Shown here in pieces: positions 18,143 to 22,848 of a stretch of DNA of 64,000 nt. The position numbers and the translations under genes were made by a program. Numbering within the stretch: position 1 is the first letter of the stretch; every line of letters begins with the position of its first letter. The stretch is taken from the NCBI GenBank assembly GCA_947623965.1, contig CANQIF010000012.1, positions 1 through 64,000 on the forward strand, read 5' to 3'. The DNA is from an uncultured Alistipes sp. (GTDB taxonomy: Bacteria > Bacteroidota > Bacteroidia > Bacteroidales > Rikenellaceae). The notes under the pieces are model-generated. The model made no database searches. It was given only the letters and a program-made list of their open reading frames with translations, and had not been told where the DNA came from.

Positions 18143-18185
18143 GATCCCCCGCTCCTGTTTTTCGGGAGCGGGGGATCTCTTTTTA
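18143..18185 (+). terminator. Rho-independent terminator after the kinase
   Basis: GATCCCCCGCTCC...GGGAGCGGGGGATC followed by TTTTT. Confidence 0.88.
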
Positions 18186-18398: not shown

Positions 18399-18430
18399 TT
18401 TGCATTTTCCGAATAAGTTTTTTACCTTTG
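18399..18430 (+). promoter_or_regulatory. promoter of the two-rSAM locus
   Basis: TTTG (18399-18402) - 20 nt - TACCTTTG (18423-18430). Confidence 0.75.
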
Positions 18431-18676
18431 CAGCGACATTTGGAAAGTGTAAGTTTATTCTTCTGTAACGAACTTAGGAAATTCGATGAGAGTGAAGAAT
18501 AGGCGGACATCTTTCGCGCCGTATCCATTTGTGGCATAAGGCGTGGGGACTGTTGCTTATTTTATACTCCGAGGTTTCCTAAGACCTGTTACAGTAAAAT
18601 AGGCTTTCAGCTCTGCGCTTTTCTTTTTTTTCTGCTTTTATCTTTCAGGGGCTGGAGAGACAAAAACGGTCTCCGT

Positions 18677-20026
18677 ATGGAACGCTTCGACTGCGAAACC
18701 GGCTTGCTGGGCGAATGCACGCTCTTTGCCTCGCAAGAAAGTGCGCTGCTGTTACAGTCTGCGACGGGGGCGACTTTGCTCGCTTCCCGGGAATTGGGAT
18801 CGCGTATTGTCCGTGGCGACCGGCGACCGGAGTTGCAGCGCGTGCTCTCCCTGCGCGGATTCGCCCTCGGTAATGAGCGGACCGCCGCCATCAAAACCGT
18901 CGATCCCCGTTTCTTTATGATCGATTTGACACGGGCCTGCAACAATCGCTGTACCTATTGTTTCCGGAAACTGCACCCGACGGAGCGTATCGGCGAAGCG
19001 ATGCTCGACGGCATCGTCGCAAAGATCGTTGCGCATTGCCGGGCCTGCGGGTTGCAGCGCATCGCCCTTCAGGCCTGGGGCGGGGAACCGCTGCTGGCCT
19101 GGGATTCGGTCCGCCGGATGCAGGATGCGCTGCACGATGCCGGAATCGAGGTGCGGATGCTGATCGAAACCAACGGTGTCTGCGTGACGCCCACCCTTGC
19201 CCGGGAGATGTACGCACGGGGCATCCTGTGCAGCGTGAGCATCGACGGTCCCGCCTTTATCCACGATCGCAACCGGTTGTCTCGGGATGGCGGTGGTTCG
19301 CATGCTGCGGCTATTCGGGGGTTCGAACGGTTGCGCGAAGCCGGTTACGGCCGCAAGGTCGGCGCCGTTTGCGTCGTAACGCAGGAGACGCTCTCCCACC
19401 TCCCGGAAGTCGTGGCCTATTTCGCCTCCGAACTGGGCCTTCCGCGCATCAAGATGAATGTCGTGAAGGAGAGCGCCCAGATGTCGGATAAATCGCTGTG
19501 CCTTACGCAAGATGACGTAGCCCGGTTTTGGCGGGCGCTGCTGGGTGAATTGGAGGCTGTCAACCGGCAGGGCATCTCGTTCGGCGAAAGCACCGTGATC
19601 GCCATGCTTCATAATCTGACGACGCATCGTCCGGTGAGCTTCTGCCATTCGCAAGGGTGTCAATCGGGTTACAGGATGCTCTCTTTCGGAATGGACGGCG
19701 GGGTTTATCCTTGCGATCTGACCGATTGTCCCGAGCTGCGGCTGGGCGATGTCCGTTCGTCCGAGGGACTGACCGCTATGGTGTCGCGCCAGACGTCGTC
19801 GCACCCGTTTCTGTGCATGTCTCTTCCGGCAGCGTGCGCGGACTGTCCGTGGCGGACGTTCTGCGGAGGCGGATGTACCTCGATGCGCCTGCATAATGGA
19901 GCCGGTGAACCCGATTGGTCCGACTGTGTCCGCAACCGGACGTTGTATCCGCTGCTGATAGAACTTATTCTCGATAAACCGCGTATCGTCTCTTCGCTTA
20001 CCGGAATGGAGGTGAAGATCACATAG
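18677..20026 (+). CDS. radical SAM/SPASM peptide maturase-like protein
   Basis: DLTRACNNRCTYCFRK (CxxxCxxC); C-terminal Cys-rich CHSQGC...CDLTDC...CADCPWRTFCGGGC. Confidence 0.9.
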   Translation: MERFDCETGLLGECTLFASQESALLLQSATGATLLASRELGSRIVRGDRRPELQRVLSLRGFALGNERTAAIKTVDPRFFMIDLTRACNNRCTYCFRKLHPTERIGEAMLDGIVAKIVAHCRACGLQRIALQAWGGEPLLAWDSVRRMQDALHDAGIEVRMLIETNGVCVTPTLAREMYARGILCSVSIDGPAFIHDRNRLSRDGGGSHAAAIRGFERLREAGYGRKVGAVCVVTQETLSHLPEVVAYFASELGLPRIKMNVVKESAQMSDKSLCLTQDDVARFWRALLGELEAVNRQGISFGESTVIAMLHNLTTHRPVSFCHSQGCQSGYRMLSFGMDGGVYPCDLTDCPELRLGDVRSSEGLTAMVSRQTSSHPFLCMSLPAACADCPWRTFCGGGCTSMRLHNGAGEPDWSDCVRNRTLYPLLIELILDKPRIVSSLTGMEVKIT

Positions 20027-20066
20027 ACAAACCCGATATTGGGCTAACTTCAAATTTAATGTAAAA

Positions 20067-20177
20067 ATGAAAAAACTGGAAAATTTGCAATCGGTGGATT
20101 TCGAGGAAGTCTCCGTGAAGTCGATGAACGACGCCTGGATTGTCGCAGGCTATGACAATTTTTGTGTAATCGCTTAA
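20067..20177 (+). CDS. candidate RiPP precursor peptide (36 aa) MKKLENLQSVDFEEVSVKSMNDAWIVAGYDNFCVIA
   Basis: Not in the ORF track; ATG 20067, TAA 20175-20177; MKKL-type start, between two rSAM genes, same strand. Confidence 0.72.
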   Translation: MKKLENLQSVDFEEVSVKSMNDAWIVAGYDNFCVIA

Positions 20178-20221
20178 TGGCTGTCGGCGGGCATTTCCGA
20201 TGCCCGCCGTTTTTTTATCCG

Positions 20222-21316
20222 ATGAATCGTAAATGCACCCTTTTGATTACCCGCGCCTGCAATCTGAATTGCATCTATTGTTATGAACGCCATAAATCCG
20301 AAGCCCGGATGCCGTTCGAAACAGCCTGCCGTATCGTCGAGGCGGAACTCTATGAAACGGCGCATGCCGGACGATACGACGGCGTGGATTTTCATTTTCT
20401 CGGCGGGGAGCCGCTGCTTCATTTCGATTTGATCCGCGATCTTTGCGAATGGACCTGGTCTGAAGCACGACCTTGTCCATACCGTTTCTATGTCATTACG
20501 AACGGGACCCTGCTCGATGCGTCGCGCCGGAGTTGGTTCGAATCCCACGCCGGGCGGATCACGGTCGACGTGTCCGTCGACGGCGTCGATGGAATGCACC
20601 GAACCAATCGGGGATGTTCGGTGCATGAACTGCCCGTGGAATGGGTCCATCGCTGCTGGCCCGGTTCCCGGTTTAAAATGACGGTTTCCCGACAGACGCT
20701 TTCGGGTTTTGCGGAGGGGGTAATCAGTCTTGTGGACAGAGGTTACGATGTCACGGCTTCACTGGCTGTAGGCGAACGCTGGACGGATGCCGATGTCGCG
20801 GAATACACTCGTCAGTGGGAGAGGCTGTCTTCCTATTACCGCTCCATTGCCGACGGGCCGATATGGCGGCAGCTGCTCAAATCCATCGATCCGCTGTTCG
20901 ACAACTCCTGCGTACAAGACAAATGCTGCGGTTCGGGCGACAGCGCCGTCACCTACGATGTCGATGGCGAGCGTTATCCTTGCGTGATCTTCACACCGCT
21001 GGTTTCCGGGCAAGATATGCGCGGTATGCTGCGCGGCATACGTTTCGACGATCCCGCCGTATTTGCCGATCCGGCGTGTGCCGGCTGTTTCATCCGCAAT
21101 ATGTGCAAGACCTGCTACGGCTTTAATCTGCGGGAGCGGGGAAGCCTTGCCGAACGGGACAAGTCCGTTTGCGGAATGTTCCGGGTCGAGATTGGCGCGA
21201 TTTGTTCTTTCCAACGCGATTTGCTCCGAAGTTTTGCCCGGGTGCGGAATCTATCGGATGCGGAGGCGCAGCGCTTGCAGAGGGCCGAGGCCGCATGCGA
21301 AGCCTTGAATCGGTAG
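20222..21316 (+). CDS. second radical SAM protein with C-terminal SPASM-like Cys cluster
   Basis: LLITRACNLNCIYCYERH; GGEPLLHF; C-terminal CAGCFIRNMCKTCYGF; ATG 20222 preferred over upstream TTG. Confidence 0.9.
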   Translation: MNRKCTLLITRACNLNCIYCYERHKSEARMPFETACRIVEAELYETAHAGRYDGVDFHFLGGEPLLHFDLIRDLCEWTWSEARPCPYRFYVITNGTLLDASRRSWFESHAGRITVDVSVDGVDGMHRTNRGCSVHELPVEWVHRCWPGSRFKMTVSRQTLSGFAEGVISLVDRGYDVTASLAVGERWTDADVAEYTRQWERLSSYYRSIADGPIWRQLLKSIDPLFDNSCVQDKCCGSGDSAVTYDVDGERYPCVIFTPLVSGQDMRGMLRGIRFDDPAVFADPACAGCFIRNMCKTCYGFNLRERGSLAERDKSVCGMFRVEIGAICSFQRDLLRSFARVRNLSDAEAQRLQRAEAACEALNR

Positions 21317-21345
21317 ATAACTTGCTGGCCTGTCTGTGCGAAGAG

Positions 21346-21386
21346 AAAACAAAAGGAACGACAACCTGCGTCGTTCCTTTTGTTTT
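21346..21386. terminator. strong (bidirectional) terminator closing the rSAM locus
   Basis: AAAACAAAAGGAACGAC / GTCGTTCCTTTTGTTTT, 17-bp arms. Confidence 0.9.
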
Positions 21387-22459: not shown

Positions 22460-22532
22460 GCGGAAATAGCTCAGTTGGTAGAGCACAACCTTGCCAAGGT
22501 TGGGGTCGCGAGTTCGAGTCTCGTTTTCCGCT
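22460..22532 (+). tRNA. tRNA-Gly (anticodon GCC)
   Basis: Cloverleaf: GCGGAAA acceptor pairing with TTTCCGC, anticodon loop TTGCCAA, T-arm GTTCGAGT. Confidence 0.95.
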
Positions 22533-22848
22533 CTAAACAAGAGAACAGTATCTAAAAGTGCTGTTCTCTTGTTTTTTGCGAGCAGGCAGCCCTTCTTTTT
22601 GCCCGCGATTCCCGAATAAATTTGGTGTTGTGCCCGATTCTTTGTATCTTTAGCTGCGAAGCGTTCGGTCCCGGCCGGGGCGTACCGTGTTCGCGGTGCA
22701 GAAGACGGCCGGGCTTCGAGGAACGGTGCGCGGCCGTACGGTGGAGGAACAACGAAACAAAAACAAAATAACCTTTTCGATAAGCCGTGGGCAGAGCCGA
22801 GCCTGCTCGGACTATGCCGAGGCGAGAAAAGGCCCAAAAATTTGAACT

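Follow-up and report, generated by a model that had tools for sequence, protein, structure and literature searches.

A 64,000-nt stretch of DNA from an uncultured Alistipes sp. (the window) contains two radical SAM genes, rSAM1 and rSAM2, with a 36-aa open reading frame between them, and this arrangement raises the question of whether the two enzymes act on that short peptide and how their synthesis is controlled. The reading preferred here, with a probability of about 0.6, is that the cassette is a RiPP locus using the 36-aa peptide. In addition to two CxxxCxxC proteins with SPASM-like C-terminal Cys residues, a sequence-only reading of the window had described the ORF between them, a promoter of their own, terminators on both flanks, a lower GC content than that of the neighboring genes and the lack of an adjacent exporter or peptidase, and all of these features were found (Table 1). 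The radical SAM motifs are C88xxxC92xxC95 in rSAM1 and C13xxxC17xxC20 in rSAM2, with matches of both proteins to Pfam Radical_SAM (PF04055; E = 9e-14 and 9e-11). The promoter consists of TTTG (18399-18402), N20 and TACCTTTG (18423-18430), and the ORF lies 40 nt 3' of the end of rSAM1 and about 45 nt 5' of rSAM2. Overlooked in the earlier reading were an internal terminator hairpin (20185-20209 followed by T7; -20.8 kcal/mol, z -3.2) and a structured leader (18442-18660) within the 246-nt leader. The inverted repeat that closes the block (-23.8 kcal/mol, z -5.4) is absent from the list of the terminator pattern scan because its T-run sits within the stem.

Table 1. Features of the two-radical-SAM block and its flanks (window coordinates).
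Feature	Position	Strand	Evidence
Intrinsic terminator of the upstream PfkB-type gene	18143..18185	+	15-bp stem 18143-18177, then T-run
Bacteroidetes-type promoter TTTG-N20-TACCTTTG	18399..18430	+	read directly
Structured leader RNA, rod of helices P1-P7	18442..18623	+	MFE; covariance model R1, 173.8 bits; covariation
Pseudoknot arm 1 (likely), AGCUCU, in the junction 5' to the 3' strand of P1; longer form TTTCAGCTCT	18609..18614	+	partner complementarity
Pseudoknot arm 2 (likely), GGGGCTGGAG, ~20 nt before the rSAM1 ATG	18648..18657	+	partner complementarity; locus L160
rSAM1, 449-aa radical SAM/SPASM protein, HxsB-like orphan	18677..20026	+	profiles, Pfam, model
36-aa ORF, candidate precursor MKKLENLQSVDFEEVSVKSMNDAWIVAGYDNFCVIA	20067..20177	+	sequence reading
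Intrinsic-terminator hairpin between peptide and rSAM2	20185..20216	+	11-bp stem + T7
rSAM2, 364-aa radical SAM/SPASM protein, Bacteroidales RiPP-maturase family	20222..21316 (ATG 20222)	+	profiles, family alignment
17-bp inverted repeat resembling a terminator, between rSAM2 and the FMN-reductase gene convergent with it	21346..21386	.	fold energy

The block also differs from its surroundings in base composition, with GC3 values of 0.72 for rSAM1, 0.57 for the peptide and 0.64 for rSAM2 versus 0.85-0.92 in four neighbors, and the gene set was probably acquired horizontally. The foreign GC3, together with the absence of pathway neighbors and of relatives, would also suit a decaying imported cassette whose genes are still open and whose product is no longer made. 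Such decay is very improbable, however, as both radical SAM frames are intact with all catalytic Cys residues, and the promoter, leader RNA and terminators are likewise intact. A tRNA-Gly (gcc) gene, possibly a former integration site, is located at 22460-22533, ~1.1 kb 3' of the block.

Judged by its sequence, rSAM1 resembles HxsB and the cyclophane maturases. Its auxiliary-cluster Cys residues are arranged as GX4C and CX2CX5CX3C, and Pfam SPASM scores 18.9 bits, slightly below the cut-off of 21.5. The top profiles are HxsB, DynA, sulfatase maturase, PapB, AmcB and YhhB, all of which score far under their NCBIfam cut-offs. The best of them, HxsB (TIGR03978), aligns with 358 residues, and plasmid HxsB sequences cover 94% of rSAM1 at 23.6% identity; however, its 135.9 bits compare with a cut-off of 370, the His-Xaa-Ser repeat is missing from the window peptide, and there is no HxsC, which does not appear among the 25 best profiles listed for rSAM2. 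The sub-cut-off score and the missing partners rule out rSAM1 as HxsB itself. The predicted core matches CteB (5why), anSME (4k38) and ChlB (9gm3) in Foldseek, and no RRE was resolved in the rSAM1 model, residues 1-74 of which have a pLDDT <50. No relative above 31% identity occurs in 180 congeneric genomes, and those in GTDB are distant ones only.

rSAM2 is very likely a RiPP maturase, because nearly every one of its relatives has a Cys-rich ORF beside it. These relatives (29-41% identity) are scattered across Bacteroidales, a second family member is encoded in the same genome (G000:C13:30755), and the three radical SAM Cys residues as well as seven C-terminal Cys residues are invariant across 11 members of the family; Pfam SPASM gives no match to rSAM2. 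A short Cys-rich ORF of 42-111 aa, each with at least three Cys residues, adjoins the relative in 11 of the 13 loci examined (G000:C13, G034, G218, G154, G066, G617, G371, G407, G472, G558 and the phage-labelled record MT836223), as exemplified by MNVQETLLAEAKATLEENRQALVADDAIVSIGCFGCGLGCADTVGG in the genome of the window and MKVDESLLQEAMNLVTASAKITKEVEKDVISAGCSFCGLGCEGIVG in G617. The best rSAM2 profile is that of the PapB ranthipeptide maturases (NF047865), which make Cys-Xn-Asp thioethers (PMC9413430), and the match extends over nearly the full profile. The relatives of rSAM2 also have Cys-rich ORFs, but the score is 116.7 bits against a cut-off of 340, and the single Cys of the window peptide stands in an Asp-X2-Cys context without a Cys-X3-Asp motif. 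The second-best profile belongs to the CXXX-repeat peptide system (TIGR04115/TIGR04119), which the spaced Cys residues of the relatives' ORFs recall (e.g. CFGCGLGC), although rSAM2 is again under the cut-offs and the window peptide has no CXXX repeat.

A homologous rSAM1-rSAM2 pair was found neither in the 180 congeneric genomes nor in GTDB, and in no known locus is rSAM1 paired with rSAM2. The presence of two maturases, which the sequence-only reading had considered unusual, is nevertheless less exceptional than it supposed, as paired radical SAM enzymes are already documented (HxsB/HxsC, for example; PMC9062424), and in one relative, L220, two radical SAM genes accompany a Cys-rich ORF. This locus (MT836223.1:7097-11793), on a phage-labelled faecal contig, is possibly a mobile two-rSAM RiPP cassette: besides two rSAM2-family genes and a Cys-rich ORF of 62 aa, it carries an integrase fragment. 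Also in the rSAM2 family, a leader-like element in G066 (L050:7384-7660) lies 5' of a frame-broken homologue and is followed by a partial second copy of the conserved core.

With respect to the substrate, the earlier proposal of a radical-SAM-modified RiPP holds for the enzymes, which are both of the peptide-maturase kind and, for rSAM2, have relatives adjoining Cys-rich ORFs, but is weakened by the 36-aa ORF, for which no homologue was found in the 180 congeneric genomes or anywhere else searched (weak matches at E 0.17-0.34 are at chance level). The peptide is matched by none of the precursor models and contains one Cys (Cys33), compared with at least three in the ORFs of the rSAM2 family. 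Moreover, when the 195-nt gap is Markov-shuffled, 16% of the copies contain an ATG ORF of at least 36 aa (p about 0.16), so that its length alone is not beyond chance. The lack of a homologue, the chance-level length and the single Cys suit an explanation that is doubtful, though to be taken seriously, in which the frame is a chance or leader ORF and one or both enzymes act on a substrate encoded elsewhere, with rSAM2, for example, acting in trans on the fitting Cys-rich peptide of the paralogous operon in the same genome (G000:C13:31915). That peptide, however, has a radical SAM enzyme of its own, whereas the 36-aa ORF begins in an AT-rich context, occupies the gap exactly and is followed by a terminator, and its position and spacing, 45 nt 5' of rSAM2, match those of the Cys-rich ORF in G617, 56 nt 5' of its radical SAM gene. 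On present sequence evidence the 36-aa peptide is the best candidate substrate of the locus. Its Tyr29-Asp30-Asn31 segment fits the Aro-Xaa-Asn cyclophane motif (PMC9062424), as would be expected were rSAM1 of the cyclophane type, this being one motif in one unconserved sequence, with the AmcB and YhhB profiles below cut-off. Two other precursors were considered and rejected: an ORF in the 5' leader (MRVKNRRTSFAPYPFVA, 18486) is not conserved among the other leader copies, and a frame 3' of rSAM2 runs through the terminator inverted repeat without a stop.

The very short precursor, the lack of an exporter and the appearance of a quinohemoprotein-maturase profile among the radical SAM matches might instead be taken to indicate a pathway like those of PqqA or mycofactocin, in which the peptide is matured to a small redox cofactor rather than to an exported RiPP. 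This is improbable in view of the operon, where neither a peptidase nor an oxidoreductase partner nor any other gene of a cofactor pathway adjoins, and of the profile matches, none of which reaches its cut-off.

The RNA upstream of rSAM1 is almost certainly a real structured RNA. The window copy (18442-18660) has a minimum free energy of -79 kcal/mol versus -55.4 kcal/mol for shuffled sequences (z -5.7). A DNA search with positions 18400-18680 as query recovered copies of 70-80% identity, several of them in each genome, from 24 of 61 relatives, and 15 copies were aligned. Helices P1-P7 pair in 94.6% of cells, as against 41-50% when slid. Among 58 order-wide matches, double changes are seen in 43 of 56 pairs, with 536 double-change cells versus 58-108 when slid, in an alignment that was fitted to the covariance model and hence leans towards it; 19 sequences from outside model building, aligned with MAFFT and folded de novo, reproduce this rod and show changes on both sides in 16 pairs. 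A pseudoknot immediately 5' of the start codon is likely from sequence complementarity: the P2-P1 junction pairs with the segment just 5' of the start codon, and over 43 distinct junctions the complementarity to the own partner is 15.9, compared with 12.7 ± 0.4 for swapped partners (0/2000).

Many copies per genome, a near-palindromic sequence, a weak antisense match and the location of some copies at contig ends are features that mobile palindromic DNA of the MITE or attC type would share. The covariation described above, the independent recovery of the rod from 19 sequences and the fixed order of promoter, rod and gene led to the rejection of a MITE or attC, and mobile DNA in place of a functional RNA is extremely improbable. 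A same-strand ORF of at least 80 aa begins within 150 nt 3' of the leader in 55 of 69 loci, versus a divergent ORF in 11 of 67, and a TAnnTTTG -7 element is found at most 60 nt 5' of it in 56 of 74 loci, compared with 18 of 607 control windows. The leader is a structured cis-acting leader RNA by virtue of its covarying helices and its fixed place between promoter and start codon.

The covariance model detects this leader in 162 of the 180 genomes of the genus, in 61 of 246 genomes of the order and in 3 of 115 genomes sampled elsewhere in the phylum; in a control set of unrelated loci (201 kb) it detects nothing. Up to 17 copies occur per genome, the number found at E <= 0.01 in the genome of the window (18442-18660 and 16 others). 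The same-strand ORFs start mostly 44-78 nt 3' of the RNA, and many of the remaining loci begin with an ORF of 35-58 aa. Typically, a surface-protein, fimbrillin or rSAM operon follows at a distance of 45-80 nt. The genes that follow encode BspA-type LRR proteins, Mfa-like fimbrillins, T9SS-tailed proteins, lipocalins and zinc-ribbon proteins, and the leader heads four rSAM2-family operons. The block had been called autonomous, which is too strong because both its promoter type and its RNA leader recur at many other genes.

For the leader, Rfam 15 gave no family at the gathering threshold and no match at E <= 1-5 that convincingly overlaps it. Flavo-1 (RF01705) and DUF805 (RF03081) are, like the leader, structured RNAs near Bacteroidetes genes, but the DUF805 RNA adjoins the leader without overlapping it. 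The literature yielded unrelated motifs plus HMP2_1881, a 108-bp Bacteroidetes structured-RNA candidate reported near radical SAM domains (PMC8040213); HMP2_1881 may be a fragment of the leader RNA.

The leader is a candidate for an undescribed class of cis-regulatory RNA. Such a class would probably be Bacteroidales-wide, with a rod of ~160-210 nt reaching from just after the -7 element to the start-codon pseudoknot, and its copies, as many as 17 in one genome, would place surface adhesins, fimbrillins, lipoproteins, zinc-ribbon proteins and RiPP operons in a regulon that answers to one signal. Few structured leaders are, to our knowledge, understood in the dominant gut phylum, and this one may expose a widespread, uncharacterised gene switch across Bacteroidales. 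Present in 90% of the genomes of the genus, where it precedes many operons for surface structures, it offers a handle on how adhesins and peptide products are coordinated.

Taken together in the preferred reading, the locus would be a horizontally acquired RiPP cassette expressed from a single promoter, with a transcript that starts with a structured RNA of ~220 nt, the 3' pseudoknot of which would lie ~20 nt before the rSAM1 start codon. This leader most likely controls how the operon is translated, according to a signal. rSAM1 and the 36-aa peptide would be made first, and the hairpin 3' of the peptide (to 20216) would stop most transcripts, resulting in less rSAM2. Both enzymes may then modify the C-terminal part of the peptide by two successive cross-links, with rSAM1 predicted to cross-link the aromatic residue at Tyr29-Asp30-Asn31 and rSAM2, by analogy to PapB, to attach Cys33 through a thioether, while the leader would be removed and the product exported by functions supplied in trans. 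On this reading, the locus is a small two-rSAM cassette outside the existing classes; its peptide differs from the Cys-rich ORFs that accompany the maturase family, and it offers a compact test case for new cross-links.

Several further observations concern other copies of the leader. A second RNA-led operon in the genome of the window (L048:5527-8056, G000:C13:29526-32055), with near copies in G034 and G218, encodes small membrane and zinc-ribbon proteins, the rSAM2 paralogue and an ORF of 46 aa that resembles a precursor and ends in SIGCFGCGLGCADTVGG. Rfam DUF805/DUF805b RNAs are located near or close 3' of leader copies at L209:1703-1768 and L198:2697-2731, where a functional link is possible. 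Finally, six loci (L143, L146, L154, L155, L159 and L170) contain, between the leader RNA and fimbrillin-type genes, ORFs of 35-46 aa that share an [E/A]xEQGF/EHGF-type motif.
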